Made by a program: the position numbers and the translations under genes. 64,000 bases of DNA, from contig OX359248.1 of assembly GCA_947179485.1 (NCBI GenBank), positions 1,939,501-2,003,500 on the forward strand. Reading direction: 5' to 3'. Positions 45,603 through 64,000 of the stretch are shown here, piece by piece (the first letter of the stretch is position 1; every line of letters starts with the position of its first letter). Under the pieces are notes generated by a model. The model saw only the letters and a program-made list of their open reading frames with translations. It was not told the DNA's origin and ran no database searches. The stretch is from Allacma fusca. Lineage: Eukaryota > Arthropoda > Collembola > Symphypleona > Sminthuridae.

Positions 45603-46660
45603 GCCCTGTCCAACTTAAATTTTTAAATGTTAAATCCCACAAGGAAACTTCATTTTCCAATTTCACGAAAAAAATACGTAATATCTCATTAATATCCGTT
45701 ATAACACAATATTCGCATGTTTGCAAACTTGGTTTGGGCCATCTCACCCTCGTTTCCGGTGGAAACCGGATTTCAGTTAGACATTTTTAGAAACACATAA
45801 GGCAAACAAAGCACTTCGGAGGCTACCTAATAATATATTATGTGTACGTACATAAGTGTTTGCACCTAAGATGCTTTTGTTTCGTTCATTATTGCTCTAA
45901 TTCCTCCCATATCAAATGCTAGTTTTTCACTTTTTAGAACCGTAAAAGCATCTTCATTTTTTATTCAATGGTTTCCAAAATTGTCTTGATTTTATGAGTC
46001 CATAATATATACTAGTAATACATTATTAAAATGTTCATGAAGTTGAAATAATTTAATTAGTTAATATTGGAAAGACTTAAAGTTGCGTTTCGAATATTGA
46101 AGGTTATGATTAGGCTTGGGAATTTGCGAAAAATGCGAAATTTTAAAAACGAGTAGTTACGATACTGGCATGGGGGTGAAACATAACCCCAGATATTGGT
46201 AGAATCCAAAAATGAAAAACAAAATTGCGAAAAATGCGAAATTTGCGAAATGGGAAGTTTAAGTGCGAAATATTAAATCGCATTACAAAATCCTGAATCT
46301 TGTAAAATATTTTACATAGACATAGATTTTTAAACAATTAATTTTGAAGGGTCCAAGCCCTTGGTCGCACATCATAAGATTTTGTAAAGCCAAATGTAAA
46401 TACGAAGTTTTCTTATTGGATATAACATTCGTAATTTTAAATCAGACCGACGGGACCCTTATGTGCTTCTAAAAATGTGTAACGTAAATCCGGTTTCCAC
46501 CGGAAACGAGGGCGAGATGGCCCAAACCAAGTTTTCAAACATGCGAATATTGTGTTAAAAGGGATATTAATGAGCTTTTACGCATTTTATTTTTTTCGTG
46601 AAATTTTAAAATAAAGTTTTCTTATGGGATTTAACATTTGAAAATTTAAGTTGGACAGGG
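45603..46660. mobile_element. Foldback element with about 200-bp inverted repeats
   Basis: 45603-45804 and 46456-46660 are inverted copies (for example TGGTTTGGGCCATCTCACC and GGTTTCCACCGGAAACGAGG on both sides). A shorter partial copy of the arm tip occurs at about 46.40-46.43 kb. The centre holds a GCGAAA-word repeat (46108-46335) that also occurs in both arms of the 50.8-64 kb element. No coding sequence is evident. Confidence 0.75.
46108..46335. repeat. GCGAAA-word repeat, copy 1
   Basis: About 225 bp starting AGGCTTGGGAATTTGCG with GCGAAAAATGCGAAATTTGCG in the middle and a CTTGTAAAATATTTTACATA end. Near-identical in plan to 52525-52742 (same strand) and its mirror copy at 62067-62290. 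Confidence 0.8.
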
Positions 46661-47348: not shown

Positions 47349-47610
47349 CTGCTTCTTCTTTCCCCCAATTAAAAGCTTATCTTTCTCACGTGCCCTTTAC
47401 CATTATCTTTTCCTCGTATAGCAAAGGTCTTTTACGAATGTATTGTACCACTGTATTATAGCTTACATTACTTGCACCACGTATTTTTCCTGGTGCAATG
47501 CCCTAAAAACTAGTACATACAGCATCAGGTACAGTCCCACCATAACATAATACTTCAAGTATTACTAATTTAAGATTTCTTTGAGATGATGCTAGTTGCT
47601 ATACAAATGA

Positions 47611-48122
47611 TCGGGTACTTGAGAATTTGGTCGGTTTCAGAGTTTGTTACCTTAGACATGGTCCCTGTGATCATTTTGATGTCATCTGTGGGTCCATAGT
47701 CCGGGTAGTTTGGGAGGTAGCACCGGGTAAAGTTAAAATCCGAAAAATGAAAAATCGGGTACTTGAGAATTTGGTCGGTTTCAGAGTTTGTTACCTTAGA
47801 CATGGTCCCTGTGATCATTTTGATGTCATCTGTGGGTCCATGGTCCGGGTAGTTTGGGAGGTAGCACCGGGTAAAGTTAAAATCCGAAAAATGAAAAATC
47901 GGGTACTTGAGAATTTGGTCGGTTTCAGAGTTTGTTACCTTAGACATGGTCCCTGTGATCATTTTGATGTCATCTGTGGGTCCATAGTCCGGGTAGTTTG
48001 GGAGGTAGCACCGGGTAAAGTTAAAATCCGAAAAATGAAAAATCGGGTACTTGAGAATTTGGTCGGTTTCAGAGTTTGTTACCTTAGACATGGTCCCTGT
48101 GATCATTTTGATGTCATCTGTG
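47611..48122. repeat. 144-bp tandem repeat, about 3.6 copies
   Basis: Units start at 47611, 47755, 47899 and 48043 (the last is partial, ending about 48122), so the period is 144 bp exactly. Copies are almost identical; the second differs from the first and third by an A-to-G in CATAGTCC. The unit is 48 codons long, and one frame stays open through all copies on each strand. No start context, splice site or known domain is attached, so coding is not supported. Confidence 0.92.
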
Positions 48123-48736
48123 ACACCAGTGTTTTCAATACATTTCATTAAACAAATTTTAATCATTGGTCTCTTGCTTTTAACTAAACTATGGCTCCCA
48201 TGTGTCGTTTTTTTTGTCAAAGTATTGTGTTAATGTTAATGTTATGTTTTACATTATACAATTTAGGTGAGTTCCCACTTTCTGTTGCATTATTTATAAT
48301 GAAAAAGGATAAATTGCATTTAGTTGAGCCAAGTTAAAAATAACTTAACTTATTAAATAACTGATAACTGACTGATGGCGGACTCATTAAACCAAATACT
48401 GTAGAACCCTGGCGGGCTGCATTTGTATTGGGCTGCAAAATTGATTCCCTTAAAATACAATAAATTCTCGTGTTGACTAAATCTAATTATTCGAATTCCA
48501 TTTCACAATCTTTTATAGCCGTATTGTTTCAATAATAATAATTATTATTATAATTATTGCAAAATAAATGAAAAAGAAATAATAAATTTATAAGAATGAT
48601 ATTGTTTTTTAATTGTTTATATCCTCAATTTAATCTCTATTAACGGTACATTAAAATTGACAATATATGACAGAGCAGTAAAAAATGTTATATTTATGTC
48701 AAACTACAATATTTGCATTCTAAACAAGTCCACAAG
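48123..48736. other. No gene seen
   Basis: AT-rich DNA with an AATAATAATAATTATTATTATAATTATT-type simple repeat around 48.53-48.56 kb. Confidence 0.4.
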
Positions 48737-49552
48737 TAAGGTTCTCAACGGATAGGATAATTCCCTTGTCCTATCCGTATCCTATCCGATCCGAATTTTT
48801 ACGGATAAAACTGAAGCTTATCCGATCCTATCCGCTTCCATCGGATTAAAAATTATCTTATCCGAAGCTTATCCGTAAATTTTCGGATGACGTTCGTATC
48901 CGAAGCCGTCGGACACGAAAAAGGAGCTATCCGATCCTATCCGCGGATATCCGATCCTACCCGCGGATATCCGATCCTATCTGCGGATACACGAATTAAT
49001 TGTAGAAGGTGAAGTTGATCCTGGAGTTTTGATTTTAGCTTTAAATACAATATTCTGTTTGCGTATAACGTATTGTAATGATAGAAGAAACCGTGCATAT
49101 GTTTGCTTGGAAAAACTTTTTAATATAAATAATTTAAGAATTGAGAGTTTTCTGTTTCGCATATCAGATATTCTCAAAAATTAATTTAACTTACAGAAAA
49201 CCTTTAACAATTTGAAGAATATAAGAACAGGTAACTAGAATAAGCAGCTGTGTCCTGTCGGTGATTGCAGAAGATAGTAATTACTCGTGGTCGTTATAGT
49301 GGTCGTCATGTTTTCAAAAATTCGTTTATCCGCGGATATCCTCGGATATCCGTCGGATTATCCGTAAAACAAAAAGTCGCCGTCCGATCCGTTCGGATAT
49401 TTCAGTTAGTAGTATCCGATCCTATCCGGGATTTTTCTCGGATGGGAATGACAAAACCGATCCGTTCGGATAAATATCGGATCGGATAATCTTCAGTTTT
49501 ATCGTATCCGATCCGTATCCGTTCGGATATATCCGATCCGTTGAGAACCTTA
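48737..49552. mobile_element. hAT-like element of CGGATATCCGATCC words
   Basis: 816 bp. It starts TAAGGTTCTCAACGGAT and ends ATCCGTTGAGAACCTTA, with a perfect 8-bp duplication TCCACAAG (48729-48736 and 49553-49560). About 250 bp at each side consist of CGGATATCCGATCC-type mutually complementary words. No transposase. Confidence 0.92.
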
Positions 49553-49676
49553 TCCACAAGGGGCCAAGTAACGTTTCGAGTCGACTCCGTTCTTCAAGGT
49601 TTGCAAGATATTCGCTGCAAAAATTCAAAAGTCAATCTTAATAGGAAGAATACCGACATGCTCTGTAAATTCTCTA

Positions 49677-50825: not shown

Positions 50826-53800
50826 GGGGGTAAAAATAGAAACTGCAAGATCCAGAGATGTTCAAACGAAATAGCCTTTCTTCAAAACTTCGAAGGCCAT
50901 TTTTTCCTAACACGAATTCCTTGATGCTTCTTTTAAAAGAATCCTTTGAAATATGATGCCCATCACTCAGCTTTTTTCACTTATTAATTTAATCGTTAAT
51001 TTAATGACTCCTGCCTTCAGCCTTCAAAAAAATCAGCCTTCCTTCCCACACAGCCATCATAGCACCAAAAACTATAGCAATGCATTTAAACAACCCTTTT
51101 GCAGGTTAAAGACCTTAAAATGAGCAATATAATTCAAAATTGCATGGTTCCCAGGTATTTGTCATTAAAAAAATGTACTCAAATTCGTCCGAAGCATAAA
51201 TTCAATGAGTATATATATCAACAAACGGTTACGATTTCTCAGTGCGAACATTAGTATGTACATGATGCATTTGCAGTGATTTCAGTAGCACTCTCATTGT
51301 TTTCTTTGTGGCGATCATTTGTCGTTAGTTGTACACCGAAGCCGTTTAAGTAGCAGAGGGCTACTTTACACACGTCCTTCCTTCGCCTACCGTTTTCTGT
51401 TAATATTAGGAAGCCTTTATCCAGCCTTCCCAAATTAATTCAGCCAACCTGATTTCCCTTCTCAACCCTCTCTGGAAACTTGATCTTCTGCCATCCATCA
51501 AGCGTTTATTAAAGGCTACGCTGGACATATATGATAAGATCCACGTGAAAGGCAAAGCAAGTTGATGCCCCATAAATAGCTGGCGTAAACTTGCTTCTCT
51601 CACTCAAGCCTCTTTACGACCCTCCAAAAGTATAAGGTTTCGTGCTTAATTGTGAGGCAAAATAATACCACTGAACTGTTTGTTATCAACACAATGAACT
51701 CAAGTGAAGATTTTATTGTGTATAATAATGTGGTGGCACGTTCCATCCACACAAGGGTATTTTTATGACCCTCTTGAAAGTGACAGGAATCATGCGGTGC
51801 CTGCACTGCATGAAACCGTATCAAATTCCCTTTTTTTTCTTATATGAAGGTTTTGAAATTTAAATTGTGGAAGTCACCTCATTTTTGTCCTTCTCATCTT
51901 CATACCATTTAATTATAGTGATACCCAGTCATTCTGGTTAGCAATATGAATTTAAAAAATTTGCTGGTACAATTTGTACTGGCAGACTCTCACAATATTC
52001 TAATGAAAATATTAACCTGGGCAGTTAAATTGTTTTTCCGGATGTAATATAACATGCAACATAATAATCTCCAAAGGAATTTTCTCCGCTTAAAACTCTC
52101 CACCCGAGCGTAATTATCTCCCCCGGAGTTTTCTCACCGTAAATAATTCCGCCTAAAAATCCCCGGAGGAGTTTTATCGTAAATCCCCGGTGGCACATGT
52201 TCTGCCCATGACAATATCACGTGGTGCGGTTTTGGTTCGTATTAACTCAATTCAAATGATATAGGATTCGTATTAACATGAAGGATTCTAAAACTCTAAA
52301 CATGTTGAATCCAAAATCCAATATTTATACAATGAATATTACTGTGAATAGTCTACAGTGTACGGAGCTCACTTTCAGCTTTAGTTTTTAGTAAAGTTAA
52401 GTTAATTGTTTAACTTGAATTTCCCACGGATGATGTTACTGTCATTCTATATTAACCCTCCCCCTCCTACCTTCGTCATCGTCATTTCTTCTCGCCCCCT
52501 CCCTCCTTTGATGATGACTAGGCTTGGGATTTTGCGAAAAATTCGAAATTCTAAAAACGATTAGTTACGATACTCCCATGGGAGTAAAAGTAAACCCCAG
52601 ATACTAGTAGAATTCAAATATGAAAAAAAAGTTGCGAAAAATGCAAAATTTGCGAAATGGGACGGTTAACTGCGAAATTTGAAATTCCATTACAAATTCC
52701 AGAACCTTGTAAAATATTTTACATACAATCATAATATTTTGACATTTTTATCATTCAATTCTGGATCTTCGGGTTTACCCGCATACTATGTACAATGGCA
52801 TTCTCTCGTGGATCGCCTCATAAATAGCAGGCGTGAACTTGCTTCTCTCACTCAAGCCTTTTTACGACCCTCCAAAAGGATAAGGTTTCGGGCTTAATTG
52901 TGAGGCAAAATAATACCACTGAACTGTTTGTTATCAACACAATGAACTCAACTGAAGATTTTATTGTGGATAATAATGTGGTGGCACGTTCCATCCACAC
53001 AAGGGTATTTTTATGACCCTCTTGAAAGTGACAGTAATCATGCGGTCCTGCACTGCATGAAACCGTATCGAATTCCTTTTTTTTGCAACAGTAATGAAAT
53101 ACATTAATACGTATTTACACTTTAACACGTTCAATGTGTTTATCTTCACAGACACATTTTCTTTGATTAATTCACAATTTCTGAACGATTTAAAGGCAGA
53201 TTTAATAGAGGAAGGGAAAAGCATTTGTAAGCATTGTATCCCATTTGTTTTCACTTTGTCATTAGGAAAGCATTAAGGCATTAAGGTTAATTAATTGCAT
53301 TAAACCCAAATCATACTCTATTTATACCCTCACGTTCAATTCACATTTTGCATTACTTATTCTGCTGTTTTTACCCATTATTTTCAGTAAATATGAGCTT
53401 CATAACAAAAATTTTTCCATTTATTCCTTCAATGAATGATTGTAGTTAGCATTGGAGTTTGGTTTTAATACACCATTGTGAAATATGATCTGCTTGAACA
53501 GACATTGAAAGTGAAGACTGAAAATTTGTTTTCATATCGCACACTGAATTGTAATTATGTTATTGTCAAATCGACACATGCATTTTATGTGTATGTAATA
53601 TGCACTTTAAGAAAAAACCAAGTGTGTAACAAACAAACGTTCATTTTGCAAATGATACGGATGTCGCAATTGTCTGCTTTAATTTGTAGGACTTACCTCC
53701 ACACATAAATGTTCGTTGGGGTTTATACATTAGCTCATTTACGATCAAGTTCTTGAACGAGAATATTGCAACAGTATTTGTCCAATAAATCATTTTTATT

Positions 53801-53848
53801 ACAGTACTGGTTAAGTCTAGCTTAAGTTTAAGCCGGTTTCAGAAATTA
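50826..53848 (+). repeat. Left inverted-repeat arm
   Basis: Contains an internal direct repeat (51570-51832 and 52819-53083, about 263 bp), the GCGAAA-word repeat (52525-52742), and a cluster of CCCCGGAG / CGTAAAT words (52.09-52.20 kb). Short open frames here are mirrored in the right arm but have no recognisable domain or splice pattern. Confidence 0.88.
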
Positions 53849-53888
53849 CTTTTCAGAGTTAGATCTCCCGAACTTATAATTGCAGAAA

Positions 53889-55798
53889 ATGTTTTTTGTT
53901 TTGATTGTGGTTGTTGGAGCAAGTTTACTTCCAGGAGCATTTTCAAATCATAAGTTGGACTCCGCCGCGTACTTTAAGCAGGTATTTATGTCCAAAAAAA
54001 TTATCAAAACTTTGAAACGGATACATTTAGTTTGTAACGGTAAATAAATACACATTAATACAAATGTTTTTACACTTCCTTTTCAGCATTCGAATGTATT
54101 ATCCTACGAGATATCTGCCAAAGTGGTATTTAAGGTGGTCCTTCCTATGTTTAATTCAAGTAATCCTGGTAAATGCGAAGGTACAGATCTCCAGTGCATA
54201 GCTGAAAGTATGATATACAATCGACGGGAGGAGCTGAAGAGCATGCTTTGGAAACATCCCAGTGCTGCCAAGACCAAACGAGTTAAGCGTCAGGCGGGAC
54301 TTGTAGTTGCCGGTTTTCTTGGAGGATTAGCTCTGCATTCAATTTTCACATTACTGGGCTCAAAAATGTCTGGATCCGATAGCGATGCTGAGGGAAACAT
54401 AAACAGGGTAAGTCCATTTTAACAATAGTGGTTATGATTGTATTGTATAATACATGTTATATTGAAAGTTGAAAAAGATGAAATAGACCTTTTTACGTCT
54501 TACAATGATTGATGGTGCATAAGAAATCATCGTCACTAGAAACGAGTAGTAATTATTGGAAATGTGTTTTCGTTAAAGTGACTTGTATTTTATTACTTAT
54601 TATTGACTTTTAGCTATGGAGCTCCATGCATGGATATCAAAAACAGTTCCTTCTATTTCGAGAGGATGTTAACCTTTACAGCCAAAACCTTTCAAGGGCA
54701 TTGAATAGATCCTGGTGGTTTGACTCAGTTCTGGAAAAGCAAACACGGTCTCATTTACATTTAACTCAAGTTAATCAGTTTATGGATCGAGTAAATTTTG
54801 GTATGCAACGATGTGGTAGCCATTTCGTCCCTTTCCAGTTCATTTCTTCCTTTGAGTTTCATTCAAACCTTTTAACCGTGCAAAACCAAACAAAAGCACA
54901 CGGGTATAAACTTGCAATTGATCCCGAAAATCTTCACGAGTATTTACAACTCCCGCTGGCTGACTGTTTTCTAACTGATTCAAATGTGTATGTATTGGTT
55001 AATATACCAATGTATAAGAAAAGATGGACTATATACGACATGATTCCCATACCCTTTGCGTATCAAAATCAAACATGCGCTTTAGAAACTCGCCACACAG
55101 ATTTGGTTGCGGTTTCTATAGACGAGGTTAAAATCCTGGATTTGAATTCCCGTCCATTTTGTGACCTAGTGCAGAAAAAACTATGCCTTGTTCCTATGTT
55201 TCAATACCCAACTGAACAGTCTTCTACATGCGCCTCCAATATCTTTCACAGGACTTCTGTTGAATCGATTGGTAATGCGTGCCTATTTAAATGTACTTCT
55301 AAATACAATGTGATTGTGACCCCACTGGAGAAAAACAAGGTAGCCGTTACGAATGGTAAAATATTAATTGTAAAATGTAAGGAATCTAGCAATCGATTTC
55401 CCCTTTACTCCTTTGGGGCTCTAGAAATTTTGCTTAAATGCAACTGCTCATACAAGGTGGACAGCAAAAATATTAGTACCGATGGAGCTTGTATTGATTC
55501 TGCATTTAATGACATAGATGTCAAAAATATAGCACCTCACTTCCTTCTCACTCCTTCCTTGTCTGGAGCAGGTTTCGATTTGTATCACAATTGGTCATTA
55601 TATCTTCCCACTTTGAATTATACCAATACTGGAGCGAATAATAATGAACCGTTGAGCTATGAACCTTTCCCAATGATGGGATATAGTCTCAATGCCAGTC
55701 ATCTTTCCTTGTGGTTGGTAGTTCTGTCAGTGCTAGTGACCGTTTTATCAATTATTATTATATTTTATGGTTGCCTTATGAAAATAAATTTTAAATAA
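53889..55798 (+). CDS. Envelope-like type I membrane glycoprotein with furin-type site
   Basis: Three exons, 53889-53981, 54087-54407 and 54614-55798, all phase 0 with GT-AG signals, total 532 aa. Exon 1 gives a signal peptide (about residues 1-19). Exon 2 holds a basic RVKR site (about 96-99), directly followed by a glycine/alanine-rich hydrophobic stretch of about 22 residues, as in class I-type fusion proteins. Exon 3 has coiled-coil-like sequence, many Cys, numerous N-x-S/T sites, a transmembrane segment of about 22 residues near the C-terminus and a roughly 10-residue tail. This layout fits insect retroviral or baculovirus F-type envelopes and their domesticated relatives; the precise family is not settled. 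Reading frames are intact with no stop. Two introns are unusual for a retroviral env copy. The start lies about 40 bp inside the left arm boundary. Confidence 0.8.
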
Positions 55799-56473
55799 CA
55801 ATCATGCATACGGTAATCATTGCATTTACTGCATTTTAAAAGGCCAAGCACTCAGACAAGTTCAGTAATCGCAAGTTCGAATTTTGAATTTTTCTTATTG
55901 TTAGTTATGTATAAATATTCTGCAACATTTGAAGTCAAATATATGTTCTAATATGATATGTACCGTAAATGACAACGTATATATGTCATGTTTATTCAGT
56001 TTGAAATCTGTAAAGGAATCATCTGAGAAGAAATACTGTAATAATTATCTTCTAGAGCTATGTATTCAAGTACATAAATAAACATAAATATGTTTCAACA
56101 AACGTTTTAAACGTAATATTTTAATTTCATGTAATAAGTTTCACAGCAATAATTTTAGTTTCCTGTACATTCTAGTGTTCCAAATCCATTATCATGGTAT
56201 AAAGGTTACAATTCAAATGAATTAAGTAACATTTGAATAAGTATGCCTCCTGATTTACATGTCAACATTCATCGTATCTATCATAATATTATACATAACA
56301 TGTCCATTATAGAAATATTTTTAGAACACATATTGTATCCGTTATATTATTTAATTTTTTAATAATTCCATTTTTAGCACGCGAACCATTATGTACTTTA
56401 ACGTGTTACTGTATGATAAAAATAAAGTAATACCAAGCTGTATAGGTAAATATATGTATATATACGTAAATAA
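55799..56473. terminator. Shared 3' region of the two convergent genes
   Basis: 675 bp of AT-rich DNA between the two stop codons. AATAAA at 56077-56082 suits the plus-strand envelope-like transcript. No equally clear minus-strand signal for the transposase was found. Confidence 0.5.
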
Positions 56474-59400
56474 CTAATAATTCCTTCGCAATGATGTAAT
56501 TTCGTCCGCCTTTTTTAAGGCGTTTACAACCTCTATAGCATTAAATTCATACATTCTGCAACTTGATGTCACAGGAGAGGGGCATGACAGGCAACTCACA
56601 AATGTGGTAAATGAGAACGTCTTTAAAATAACCGGTTCTGGCCAGTAATATTTATTTCTGGTTTGCTTCATTAATTGTATTTCAACTTCACCAGCCTCGA
56701 TTTTAATATAAGTAACCAAGCCAACATAAAACATTGACGAACAAACAAATGAAGCATACTGTCCTTGCTTAAGCATTTCGATACCTGAATTAAATATTTC
56801 TGCGGTTGTATCGAACTTATGCACATAAGCTTCAATAGACGAAGCAAATCTTTTGCATATCAAACCCTCATTAGGAATAACGTCAATGAAATGTAATTTT
56901 CTCGTTCCCGGGACAGTTTTAAACCGCGTATAACGTTGCTCAATATCTTCACTACATTTTGTTATTACGGATTCTTCTATGTACTTGTAATGCTTTAATG
57001 GATCTGTGTTTTGCTGTTGTAGAAATGTACACATATCATTTGCACTTAAAATGTAATTTTCTTTCCTTCTGAGGCTTTCCAAGCGCACTAACCGCTTTGT
57101 AATAGCAGATATGGCATCTACAACATCCTTTCCATGGGATGTAGCACTGAAGCACCAACTAGCCTTTATACCGAAGTCTTCAAAGTGAAGGTACAAGTTT
57201 GCAAAGTTTTTTACGTTTTTATATTGCGAACCTGCACCATCTGAAACGTATATTAGTTCTGTAATCCATGGTAATCTTACTTTAATATCTGCAATAAATG
57301 AATACCTTAATGCATGGAAAGAAGTCGCATCATGGACAAGACTGTCACTTATTCCAACAAAAGAAAATAACCGAATATTTTCTGTTCTTGGTTCCTTATA
57401 GTATAAACAGAATGGGTGAATTGTTGCTTGCACATTTCCCCAGTAAGAACTTTGTACAGCATTTGGGATAACAAAGGTATAATTCTGGCCGAAATCAACA
57501 TTGACTATACCAACATTACACTGCAATTCTCTAAACTGCTTTAGGTCGTCAATGAATTGCTTTTGCTTAACATAAATAAAATGATGCTCTGCGGTTTTAT
57601 TTACGCATGTCTTAAACAAGTTGCAAAATGGAGACTTTTCTAATCGTTTCTTCGTTAATTCTATAGAAGGTCCATTCGAAAGTGATTCCCAATACCAAAA
57701 TTCGACAAAGGGCGATTCCCACATTTCTATGATATCTTCAACACCCTCAAAATTGGGACAATTTTCGCATATCCCCGTTAAACATTTTTCATCTTGACAA
57801 CAAAAAAATTTGTTCAACAATTCCGTTGTTTTTCCCGTTAAACCAATCGATTCACACAGAAGCTTAAAATTTGTGTGAATAGTACAAAGGCACGACTTTT
57901 GGAATCCTTTACGAAACCCCCAAACACATTCTCGAGGTCTAAGAGAAGCAAACTTGGACTTTGAGATGTGGAGGTAAGGATATTTGGCAACAAATTCCGA
58001 ATATAATTGCCTCATTGTACAAAACATTTCCCGCTTCTGAACCAGTGTTTTGACTGTTTTACCTTGTATTACCTCTCGAACGAAAATGGTGTCTCTAGCT
58101 GCAGGCGACAGTTTACTATTATCACAGTTTCTGTAAAATTCTGTTACAAGATTTACCGTGGAATCTGGGATTTTTCTTCCTAATCGAGGTGGAGGAGCGG
58201 ACATTGGTCCACACTCCTTTCTTAATTTCGAAACCTTCACGGCAGTTCCCTTGGAAACCTTAAATTTTGTTTGAAGTTTCGAAAGCGATACCCATTTTGG
58301 CGTACTAGTCATGCATTTGTACTGTTCAGAGACTGTTTCTGCAGCGTTTTTTGAGATAACAAGTTGATCGACTAGTTCATGACAATCTAGACATCCCTTG
58401 ACCAAATCCTGAACAAAATCAACATCATGTTTAAGGAAAGCTCGCATTAAAAACGCGACTTTTTCCTGCACGACCGATCTCAGACTGATACACTGTTTTA
58501 TAGTTCGTAGCTCAGACTTATTAACAAGAGGAATGCCCAATACATTACAAATGATTTTAATTTTTTCCTCAGCTACATCCTTATCAATGTAATCGTCATC
58601 ACTGTCAGATAAATCACTAGAGTCTGTCGAGCTTTCATCGAAAATGTCTTGTGTATCAGTGACGTTGCCGGGGACCTCGTCCACTTCCATTGCATCATCA
58701 TTCTTGTCGGACTGTCCAATCAATTCTTTTTGAATCAAATTCATGCACTTCCAACAAAGGTGGTCACCTATTGATAGATTTCGACCCAGTAGTGCCGCAC
58801 TGGCTATTTGTTCCTGTGTAACTTCCTTAAAAACCGTCAAAAAGTTTTTTTTATTTGGTTTCGGATGTCTCTGGAAAGGATCTGCGCAGTATACGCCAGG
58901 ACTGAAATGAAGGGAGAGTAATAATCTGTATTTCGTAATCCTAATTGTGACGTACAATTTCATTATTTTAATAGGATGGGCAACAGTTACCAAATATTTT
59001 ATCTGAGTAGTCCGCTTACTAAAATGTCCGTCAATTTGTCAAAATAAAAATGAAACTAGTGTACACCTGGAATATAATTCAAAACCGCAGTCTCTGAGGA
59101 ATTCAACATAAATTCTTTTTTGAGTCTCAACATGCTTGCTTTCAAATACTAATTTAAAAACGTGCTTAGAATCTACGGAAAATGGATTGTTATACTCCTC
59201 TTTGGATCCTTCAACATATTTGAATTCACCTTTTTAATAAACCAGCAATTCAATTTACACTTTCGATATTTCAATCACTGGGATACAACAAATCTAAAAT
59301 TCTTAGCTTAAAATATAAACGGTGCATTTTTTCCTCACGCTTTATATGCATTGTTACTGCAATTATACTGTCTAATACTATAACCTGCTTATTAAAACGG

Positions 59401-60643
59401 CCAATTTGAATAGCCCTGTTTTGAAATAAATTTGTTTATCAGATCAGGAGATTAATGAGACTTAAATACGGAATGAGTCAACCAAAAATTCTATAAACTG
59501 TTATCAAATTACATTTACCCTCCCCTAGTACCTTCTATTTGAATTTCTGTAGGAACGCCTTCCGTATGTGTCAGGTATTAGGAACACGCAAGAAGAACTT
59601 ATAAAAATGAAAATAGAGTGTTTGGGGGAGGATAAATATACCGTGCGCACTATATTTCTCTTAGGAGGAAAAGGTGTTGGAGGTAACATTATGATATATT
59701 TTATAAATTCCAAAATTATAATTTTGGACGGAATTTAACATAAATTTGTAACTTACAAAAATTCCTTGGCATGTTCCATGTAGACCTTGTACTTACAATC
59801 GAAGCAAACATAGCTTTCTGTAATCACTGGTAAATTCATTGGAAGTGCCAAATACTTCTCCAAAAGTTTACCACTTACGCGAAACCACACCTCGGTTGAC
59901 TTTTTTCTCCTTGGTGTAGAGTGATTTCCAAATGGGTTGGGGCAAACTATCGATTTTCTGTTAAAACAATTCAACTTATAAATACGATGTCCAACAAAAT
60001 GAAAAATAAAAAATAGGTCACAATAACGTTTTACGCACATGACTTTTGTTTGTGTAAGCAAGCCTGACCCTCCACACTGAAAACTTGTTGAAGCCACATC
60101 TGGACATCTCCTTTAAAAAATAAAACGTGCCATGAGTTACCATCTACATTAAAAAATTTCCTTTAATGCCGAGTTTTTAAAGTTCTTAAAGTTTTATTTT
60201 CAATGCATATTGCTCGCCGCGGAAGCGTGTTTAGTTGCAAATAGATGTTAGAAATTATCAATCATTGTTAGCAAAAAGGATAGTCAAATACTACAAACTG
60301 GCTACTGAAATTTACAATGATAGCTTACTCCGTATTTTGATGGTTCGGTCCAGAAGCCAAATCTTCATTACTAATACGTAAAATACGCAAATAGTTACAT
60401 GGCATACTATTTCAGATACGTAAAAGAAGAAGACGTACCAAAAACTTACCTATTTCGCGCAGGTTTCCGCACAACTGCCAGTCTACAAGGATTGCATATG
60501 TACGAGTTCAGAGGAAGAAGAACATCGGAAGTTATTCTCAAGGTTTCAGTAATTGGACGAAAATTGGACTTCGTTCTTTTAGAAGCTCTACATTGCTTCA
60601 AATGTCTGCCGAGAGGGTTGCAGCAGACAATCTCTACACTCAT
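56474..60643 (-). CDS. Putative DDE-type transposase with three zinc-module exons
   Basis: Exons 60643-60450, 59957-59757 and 58901-56474 have donors GTAAGT and GTAAGT and acceptors TTTTAACAG and TTCATTTCAG. They join in phase 2 to 2823 nt, 940 aa. Each exon contributes one module of the form C-x-(N/D)-P-(L/F)-x2-H followed by about 35-50 residues and CxxC: CCNPLGRH..ICNPCR, VCPNPFGNH..VCFDCK and YCADPFQRH..LCWKCM. An acidic Ser/Asp stretch (about residues 215-240) follows. The C-terminal half has NVDFGQN (Asp about 601), YVSDGAGSQYKN (Asp about 686) and SHGKDVVDAI (Asp about 727). The spacing fits an RNase H-like DDE/D core, with a basic helix after the last motif. Similar SHGK..D proteins are widespread in invertebrate genomes, but I cannot name the superfamily. 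The frame has no stops. The in-frame ATG at 58993 lies in the intron and is not the start. Confidence 0.82.
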
Positions 60644-60960
60644 TTTTCTTATTGTAGTATTACTTTCATAAATCCTTGTTCAACTTAAATGTATAAAAAA
60701 GAAACTTGTTTTCAAAAACAGGTTTTTTAAAACGTTTGCAGCGATAGGCAGGCCGCGAGAATTAGGTTCACCAAATCGATACGATTAAGAGATAAAATGC
60801 TCAAACTCAAGTAGTCACAAATGCTATTCTGATGATTCAGCAATACGCGTTTCTGGGAGATTATAATGAACAAATGCATAAGTGAGTCTTACTTAATAAT
60901 GCTTACGATAAAAACTATTTATTGCAGCAATAAATCGAAATTATTTTAGTTAAACAACTA
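60644..60960 (-). promoter_or_regulatory. Upstream region of the transposase gene
   Basis: About 320 bp between the right arm and the transposase start. An acceptor-like TTTATTGCAG at about 60.93 kb (minus) suggests a spliced 5'UTR. No core promoter motif can be named. Confidence 0.35.
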
Positions 60961-63900
60961 AATTTCCAAAACCGACTAAAACTCAAGCTAGACTTAACCA
61001 GTACTGTAATAAAAATGATTTATTGGACAAATACTGTTGCAATATTCTCGTTCAAGAACTTGATCGTAAATGAGCTAATGTATAAACCTCAACGAACATT
61101 TATGTGTGGAGGTAAGTCCTACAAATTAAAGCAGACAATTGCGACATCCGTATCATTTGCAAAATGAACGTTTGTTTGTTACACACTGGGTTTTTTCTTA
61201 AAGTGCATATTACATACACATAAAATGCATGTGTCGATTTGACAATAACATAATTACAATTCAGTGTGTGATATGAAAACAAATTTTCAGTCTTCACTTT
61301 CAATGTCTGTTCAAGCAGATCTTATTTCACAATGGTGTATTAAAAACAAACTCTAATGCTAACTACAATCATTCATTGAAGGAATAAATAGAAGTAATTT
61401 TTGTTATCAAGCTCATATTTACTGAAAATATTGGGTAAAAACAGCAGAATAAGTAATGCAAAATGTGAATTGAACGTGAGGGTATAAATAGAGTATGATT
61501 TGGGTTTAATGCAATTAATTAACCTTAATGCCTTAATGCTTTCCTAATGACAAAGTGAAAACAAATGGGATACAATGCTTACAAATGCTTTTCCCTTCCT
61601 CTATTAAATCTGCCTTTAAATCGTTCAGAAATTGTGAATTAATCAAAGAAAATGTGTGTGTGAAGATCAACACATTGAACGTGTTAAAGTGTAAATACGT
61701 ATTAATGTATTTCATTACTGTTGCAAAAAAAAAGGAATTCGATACGGTTTCATGCAGTGCAGGCACCGCATGATTCCTGTCACTTTCAAGAGGGTCATAA
61801 AAATACCCTTGTGTGGATGGAACGTGCCACCACATTATTATCCACAATAAAATCTTCAGTTGAGTTCATTGTGTTGATAACAAACAGTTCAGTGGTATTA
61901 TTTTGCCTCACAATTAAGCCCGAAACCTTATCCTTTTGGAGGGTCGTAAAAAGGCTTGAGTGAGAGAAGCAAGTTCACGCCTGCTATTTATGAGGCGATC
62001 CACGAGAGAATGCCATTGTACATAGTATGCGGGTAAACCCGAAGATCCAGAATTGAATGATAAAAATGTCAAAATATTATGATTGTATGTAAAATATTTT
62101 ACAAGGTTCTGGAATTTGTAATGGAATTTCAAATTTCGCAGTTAACCGTCCCATTTCGCAAATTTTGCATTTTTCGCAACTTTTTTTCATATTTGAATTC
62201 TACTAGTATCTGGGGTTTACTTTTACTCCCATGGGAGTATCGTAACTAATCGTTTTTAGAATTTCGAATTTTTCGCAAAATCTCAAGCCTAGTCATCATC
62301 AAAGGAGGGAGGGGGCGAGAAGAAATGACGATGACGAAGGTAGGAGGGGGAGGGTTAATATAGAATGACAGTAACATCATCCGTGGGAAATTCAAGTTAA
62401 ACAATTAACTTAACTTTACTAAAAACTAAAGCTGAAAGTGAGCTCCGTACACTGTAGACTATTCACAGTAATATTCATTGTATAAATATTGGATTTTGGA
62501 TTCAACATGTTTAGAGTTTTAGAATCCTTCATGTTAATACGAATCCTATATCATTTGAATTGAGTTAATACGAACCAAAACCGCACCACGTGATATTGTC
62601 ATGGGCAGAACATGTGCCACCGGGGATTTACGATAAAACTCCTCCGGGGATTTTTAGGCGGAATTATTTACGGTGAGAAAACTCCGGGGGAGATAATTAC
62701 GCTCGGGTGGAGAGTTTTAAGCGGAGAAAATTCCTTTGGAGATTATTATGTTGCATGTTATATTACATCCGGAAAAACAATTTAACTGCCCAGGTTAATA
62801 TTTTCATTAGAATATTGTGAGAGTCTGCCAGTACAAATTGTTCCAACGAGTTTTTTAAATTTATATTGCTAACCAGAATGACTGGGTATCACTATAATTA
62901 AATGGTATGAAGATGAGAAGGACAAAAATGAGGTGACTTCCACAATTTAAATTTCAAAACCTTTACATAAGAAAAAAAGGGAATTTGATACGGTTTCATG
63001 CAGTGCAGGCACCGCATGATTCCTGTCACTTTCAAGAGGGTCATAAAAATACCCTTGTGTGGATGGAACGTGCCACCACATTATTATACACAATAAAATC
63101 TTCACTTGAGTTCATTGTGTTGATAACAAACAGTTCAGTGGTATTATTTTGCCTCACAATTAAGCACGAAACCTTATCCTTTTGGAGGGTCGTAAAGAGG
63201 CTTGAGTGAGAGAAGCAAGTTTACGCCAGCTATTTATGGGGCATCAACTTGCTTTGCCTTTCACGTGGATCTTATCATATATGTCCAGCGTAGCCTTTAA
63301 TAAACGCTTGATTGAAGGCAGAAGATCAAGTTTCCAGAGAGGGTTGAGAAGGGAAATCAGGTTGGCTGAATTAATTTGGGAAGGCTGGATAAAGGCTTCC
63401 TAATATTAACAGAAAACGGTAGGCGAAGGAAGGACGTGTGTAAAGTAGCCCTCTGCTACTTAAACGGCTTCGGCGTACAACTAACGACAAATGATCGCCA
63501 CAAAGAAAACAATGAGAGTGCTACTGAAATCACTGCAAATGCATCATGTACATACTAATGTTCGCACTGAGAAACCGTAACCGTTTGTTGATTAGTACTG
63601 GATCATGACAATATATACTCATTGAATTTATGCTTCGGACGAATTTGAGTACATTTTTTTAATGACAAATACCTGGGAACCATGCAATTTTGAATTATAT
63701 TGCTCATTTTAAGGTCTTTAACCTGCAAAAGGGTTGTTTAAATGCATTGCTATAGTTTTTGGTGCTATGATGGCTGAGTGGGAAGGAAGGCTGATTTTTT
63801 TGAAGGCTGAAGGCAGGAGTCATTAAATTAACGATTAAATTAATAAGTGAAAAAAGCTGAGTGATGGGCATCATATTTCAAAGGATTCTTTTAAAAGAAG

Positions 63901-64000
63901 CATCAAGGAATTCGTGTTAGGAAAAAATGGCCTTCGAAGTTTTGAAGAAAGGCTATTTCGTTTGAACATCTCTGGATCTTGCAGTTTCTATTTTTACCCC
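60961..64000 (-). repeat. Right inverted-repeat arm (cut by window edge)
   Basis: Mirror of 50826-53848. The internal direct repeat (61731-61995 and 62978-63240) and the GCGAAA-word repeat (62067-62290) occur in mirrored order. The last bases of the window equal the mirror of about 50826-50840, so the arm continues outside. Confidence 0.9.

Follow-up and report, generated by a model that had tools for sequence, protein, structure and literature searches.

Gain of an envelope gene (env) made long terminal repeat (LTR) retroelements infectious; by what route plain DNA transposons cross from one species to another is still debated. Insect errantiviruses are env-bearing LTR retrotransposons with an F-type envelope gene. 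Here we analyzed 64,000 nucleotides of Allacma fusca DNA (contig OX359248.1; hereafter the window), in which inverted arms of kilobase length enclose one gene for a candidate DDE-type transposase and one for an envelope-like glycoprotein, a putative fusogen. The nearest known cases are env capture by LTR elements, the fusogens of nematode Mavericks and the Teratorn fusion (statements about cited papers refer, here and below, to the parts of each that were covered). LTR elements have gained baculovirus env (PMC10175614) and, like the element in the window, join a genome-resident element to a baculovirus-F-type envelope gene; however, the interior of the window element has neither an LTR pair nor a match to gag or pol, its env-like gene has introns of its own, and its enzyme has a predicted DDE-type fold. 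Nematode Mavericks with a putative fusogen and an integrase (PMC10680173) are likewise DNA elements combining these two functions, but Mavericks carry polymerase and capsid genes, whereas none was matched here, only two genes lie between the visible arms, and the DDE enzyme has no Pfam match. Teratorn, a piggyBac–herpesvirus fusion of ~180 kb with many herpesvirus genes (PMC10175614), is also a DNA transposon with an envelope glycoprotein gene, in contrast to which the window element has far fewer genes and an enzyme without a piggyBac Pfam match.

Long inverted ends alone, and a DDE-type transposon with a second gene, are already known. Galileo/Foldback-type transposons have unusually long inverted ends around a transposase (PMC3688188), as here; Galileo, however, belongs to the P-element superfamily with a THAP domain, and no envelope gene is named for it in the parts covered, whereas neither exons A and B nor the exon C open reading frame (ORF) of the window enzyme gave a THAP match in Pfam. 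The composite-like KolobokP transposons combine a DDD/E transposase with a homing endonuclease (PMC9587614), and thus also pair a DDE-type transposon with a second, unrelated gene; this likeness is by description only, the second gene being a nuclease and not a fusogen, and the word "envelope" is absent from the text of that paper covered. In the fly ovary, MDG1-group retrotransposons use a fusogen-like protein, sORF2, for passage between cells without Envelope (PMC11952523). They are likewise mobile elements with their own fusogen-like protein for cell-to-cell passage, but are LTR retrotransposons with capsids, in which a short transmembrane protein stands in for Envelope. Because of this case, which still uses a capsid, cell-to-cell spread by a fusogen is a reasonable expectation here. 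Two possible cross-species routes named in a review of giant transposons are the env genes of LTR elements and the capsids of Polintons (PMC6431247), and env on cut-and-paste elements is not mentioned in the parts of it covered. Our literature search (titles, abstract starts and term counts in open-licence PubMed Central) gave no DNA transposon with a Baculo_F-type env among the matches listed, a result that does not prove absence; nor did the term Baculo_F occur among the matches listed (best 20 of 82; best 40 of 881), or the term PF12259 among the best 40 of 881.

We regard the locus as probably a DNA transposon of an un-named DDE family which took up a baculovirus-F-type fusogen. We favor this reading because the arms are 98% identical, both genes are intact with GT-AG introns, the catalytic triad is conserved, the fold is predicted and the Baculo_F match lies above its cut-off, and also because the interior contains no long repeat and the window no second match to the transposase family. 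The probabilities expressed for this reading and for the alternatives below overlap, and need not sum to one.

Self-alignment of the window revealed that the two arms (Table 1) pair in inverted orientation at 98.2% identity over 3042 alignment columns, bearing out the arms of at least 3 kb claimed in an earlier sequence-only reading of this DNA. Aligned globally over 3019 bases, the two arms differ by 32 mismatches, in addition to six indels. This pairing is far beyond chance, and a chance origin was rejected on the identity across ~3 kb. The 390 nt at the window edge still pair, listed at 100%, and pairing reaches base 64000; therefore the true arm is longer than its visible part, and the left outer end lies further left. 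Since the right arm runs off the window end, position 50826/50827 simply mirrors base 64000 and does not mark where the element ends, and the left boundary placed at 50826 by the sequence-only reading was a window-edge artefact. As lower bounds, the arm measures at least 3.02 kb and the whole unit at least 13.2 kb, and the interior enclosed by the arms is 7.1 kb. As for the terminal inverted repeats expected of DDE/D transposons, the locus thus has arms of at least 3 kb whose outer ends lie beyond the window.

Each arm carries two copies of a 271-bp direct repeat, which differ at 12 positions within the left arm and nine within the right, but at only one and two positions between matching copies of the two arms; hence the repeat had already been duplicated when the arms were last made alike. 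A piece of dispersed repeat present in both arms also matches positions 46106–46318, with 86.4% (left arm) and 85.4% (right arm) identity, and most simply, the copying or homogenization of the arms came later than the arrival of this piece. Divergence appeared to increase inward, with 14 mismatches in the outer 2208 bp and 18 in the inner 813 bp (Fisher p 4.5e-4); however, the split point was picked post hoc and division by halves gave 13 versus 19, so little weight is given to this gradient. Separately, positions 45604–46660 form an element of ~1 kb with inverted ends of ~200 bp, the middle of which holds the dispersed repeat of both giant arms.

The two genes of the interior are convergent (tail to tail), each starting just inside one arm and reading inward, the env-like start codon being separated by 41 bases from where the left arm ends on its inner side, and the transposase start codon by 317 bases from the corresponding end of the right arm. 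Both gene models are predictions, with exons read from the DNA by GT-AG sites, compatible phases and the lack of internal stops. Their main open frames span 854 and 394 codons; when the interior was shuffled 200 times by mononucleotide, no stop-free run exceeded 151 codons. The earlier description of exactly two convergent, intact, intron-containing genes therefore holds for their structure, whereas the count covers only the space between the visible arm parts. Analysis of the 7.1-kb interior revealed no LTR pair or long direct repeat, and no repeat longer than ~20 bp; Pfam models for gag, pol, capsid and polymerase gave no match to the four interior ORFs of at least 100 amino acids, and those for polymerase, capsid and packaging none to the two such ORFs in the visible arms. 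With two genes so compactly arranged between the arms, it is likely that the arms supply a promoter common to both. AATAAA signals lie at 56077 and 56421 on the plus strand and at 55996 on the minus strand, within positions 55798–56477, which suggests that the 3′ ends of both genes overlap. Such overlapping 3′ ends would be a possible source of double-stranded RNA.

The env-like gene, on the plus strand, comprises three exons encoding 31 + 107 + 394 = 532 amino acids, separated by phase-0 GT-AG introns. In Pfam, exon 3 gave a match to Baculo_F (PF12259) with an E value of 4.1e-8 and 32.7 bits against a cut-off of 24.1, residues 53–289 covering profile positions 228–475 of 609; the exon also encodes 13 cysteines, and its final stretch is strongly hydrophobic. 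The signal-peptide-like start, furin-type site, fusion-peptide-like stretch and anchor are all present as judged from sequence pattern and hydropathy, in agreement with the envelope-like glycoprotein that had been proposed. These features support a product of the baculovirus-F type, a putative fusion protein and fusogen. The possibility that env arrived as a separate retro-insertion was rejected on its two introns, the lack of a flanking LTR pair and the lack of a pol match.

The transposase gene, on the minus strand, has three exons encoding 940 amino acids, with GT-AG introns, compatible phases and no internal stop. An AlphaFold2 model of the transposase core (predicted local distance difference test score, pLDDT, 86.5) contains the RNase H-like catalytic fold of DDE/D transposons; of the 50 structure rows listed for it, 49 are matches to retroviral integrases or to the Mos1, IstA, Metnase and Sleeping Beauty transposases. 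Three acidic residues stand in the correct order: the candidate triad D515/D600/D641 is aspartate in 49 of 49, 54 of 54 and 46 of 49 aligned rows with a letter, respectively. The earlier suggestion of a DDE-type transposase candidate is thus strengthened by the predicted fold and the conserved triad. In Foldseek, a small beta domain, placed by inference within exon C, resembled the Tudor domains of PHF1 (probability 1.00, TMt 0.80, E 0.26) and SMN (probability 0.99, TMt 0.68, E 0.25), and Pfam Tudor_4 matched one of 54 family members (E 0.00099).

The core of the transposase found 53 relatives at E ≤ 1e-3 among 881 scored candidates, including rows from Bactrocera neohumeralis and from a Nitrosopumilus metagenome assembly; its family is presumably carried in the records as "uncharacterized" animal proteins. 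Pfam transposase models gave no match to the exon C ORF, to the pieces tested or to exons A and B, and among the 54 aligned members no Pfam family occurred in more than three, among the 25 of 32 families listed at E ≤ 0.1. A sequence search of the PDB gave no match, and pattern scans of viral contigs and prokaryote genome contigs, which need an exact match of a short conserved stretch, gave no confirmed relative. The viral fold library gave one match at E ≤ 0.001, not meaningful at TM-scores of 0.07 and 0.08. A literature search for five motif strings of the family returned no paper in open-licence PubMed Central. The family has many relatives in public records, although no Pfam model covers it. 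A second copy within the window was rejected, since hmmsearch of six-frame pieces of at least 25 amino acids gave one match at E 2.3e-109 and the next at E 1. Family members keep an SDG(A)xSQYKN motif, and may deserve a family name of their own.

Several results weigh against this interpretation. On the envelope side, the fold of exon 3, predicted from a single sequence without relatives, gave no usable model (pLDDT 33.7), and no relatives beyond the Pfam profile were found by PDB sequence search, by phage search (exon 3 only), by relatives search (exon 3; 0 among 1347 scored candidates) or by the pattern scan of viral contigs; the Baculo_F identity thus rests on one profile match and the order of features. 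On the transposase side, Foldseek against the PDB gave no match at E ≤ 0.001, the best (0.011) being an unrelated kinesin, and several VIA structure rows that span several domains had root-mean-square deviations of 13–17. The window protein departs from the family motif, with V at 640 where C occurs in 44 of 49 rows and A, S and A at 642, 644 and 645 where G occurs in 37, 41 and 44 of 48 rows, and the whole 854-residue ORF as query found 0 relatives among 7994 scored candidates, whereas the shorter core alone found them. On the structural side, the outermost 390 bp of the visible arm are still paired, so that the arms could continue as an ordinary duplication, and none of the defining marks of a transposon insertion (terminus, target duplication, second copy) was seen in the window.

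Among alternatives, a true transposon whose env gene was captured and is carried passively, or is of host type and derived from env, contributing nothing to spread, is doubtful yet fares best. Gene capture by transposons is known from Pack-MULE (PMC6431247); however, the env gene is intact, has kept its signal-peptide-like start, furin-type site, fusion-peptide-like stretch and anchor, and adjoins its arm much as the transposase gene does. We consider it unlikely that the arms are a host inverted segmental duplication, a large palindrome with both genes merely in its spacer. Outer arm ends beyond the window, near-perfect pairing still at its edge and a dispersed-repeat piece common to both arms would fit a duplication, but the inner arm ends adjoin both gene starts, the genes lie tail to tail and fill much of the spacer, and one of them encodes a DDE-type enzyme, a class acting on inverted ends. 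Membership of a larger virus-like element, such as an integrated DNA virus or a Maverick-like element with further genes outside the visible arms, is improbable: although the arms extend past their visible part and integrase and putative fusogen co-occur in nematode Mavericks (PMC10680173), the four interior and two arm ORFs showed no polymerase, capsid or packaging match, and for neither protein was a relative confirmed by scanning viral contigs for exact short stretches. An assembly artefact, by inverted join of two haplotypes or amplification chimera, is very improbable: although the ~1% arm difference could be allelic and the right arm stops with the window, its far side lying beyond the sequence at hand, a unique 7.1-kb spacer holds two complete genes, the arms end near the gene starts, and six indels separate them.

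If the locus is a transposon that acquired a fusogen, we infer that it might operate as follows. A promoter for both genes would lie within the inverted ends, each gene reading inward, so that transposase and fusogen would be switched on together. The transposase would bind the ends through its zinc-finger-like modules and use the DDD triad for excision and reinsertion of the element, and its Tudor-like part may guide it along chromatin. The fusogen would enter the secretory route, be cleaved at RVKR and reside in the membrane; there it could fuse adjacent cells, such as soma with germline; alternatively, it could dress vesicles or particles of another virus. Either action would open the way of the element to new nuclei. 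More tentatively, and with less confidence than in the fusogen-bearing transposon itself, we consider that the locus could be a minimal "enveloped" cut-and-paste element with two genes and ends of kilobase length, from an undescribed DDE superfamily, which would use its own class I type fusogen for transfer between cells or hosts without a capsid or polymerase gene of its own. If true, such an element would be the DNA counterpart of infectious LTR retroelements and offer a direct route for horizontal transfer of a DNA transposon.

Table 1 Positions of the arms, their repeats and the exons and domains of the two genes in the window.
Feature	Position	Strand	Basis or remark
Left inverted arm, visible matched part	50827..53847	+	self-alignment; outer end further left
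271-bp direct repeat, left arm, outer copy	51567..51837	+	12 differences vs left inner copy
Dispersed-repeat piece in left arm	52514..52725	+	also right arm 62086–62296, and 46106–46318
271-bp direct repeat, left arm, inner copy	52815..53084	+	
env-like exon 1: start codon, signal-peptide-like stretch, 31 amino acids	53889..53981	+	sequence pattern/hydropathy
env-like exon 2: furin-type site RVKR, then fusion-peptide-like hydrophobic stretch, 107 amino acids	54087..54407	+	sequence pattern/hydropathy
env-like exon 3: Baculo_F region, 9 N-glycosylation motifs, C-terminal anchor-like stretch, 394 amino acids	54614..55798	+	Pfam and hydropathy
Transposase exon C: module 3, linker, DDE-type catalytic domain, C-terminal part	56474..58901	-	
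Tudor-like small beta domain within exon C, model residues 569–625	56588..56758	-	place inferred from model strands
RNase H-like (DDE-type) domain within exon C, model residues 315–487	57002..57520	-	predicted fold
Transposase exon B, zinc-finger-like module 2	59757..59957	-	no Pfam match
Transposase exon A, zinc-finger-like module 1	60450..60643	-	no Pfam match
Right inverted arm, cut by window end	60961..64000	-	self-alignment
271-bp repeat, right arm, inner copy	61726..61996	-	2 differences vs left inner copy
271-bp repeat, right arm, outer copy	62972..63242	-	1 difference vs left outer copy

The surroundings look like an animal nuclear genome, judging from ORFs in the left half of the window that match glutamine synthetase, Pin1-type rotamase and a dual-specificity phosphatase followed by an mRNA capping enzyme domain in Pfam, the capping enzyme and N-terminal glutamine synthetase matches being below Pfam's cut-off. 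The joining of a phosphatase with a capping enzyme is indicative of animals. Rfam and tRNA scans of the window gave no result. At positions 47610–48122, a 144-bp unit is repeated 3.6 times with 99% matches, and both strands have open frames there; one ORF gave weak Pfam matches that look like chance. Positions 48737–49552 hold a small element rich in TATCCG repeats, with inverted ends TAAGGTTCTCAAC and GTTGAGAACCTTA and flanked by an 8-bp direct repeat, TCCACAAG, at 48729–48736 and 49553–49560, and by these features it looks like a hAT-type miniature inverted-repeat transposable element.

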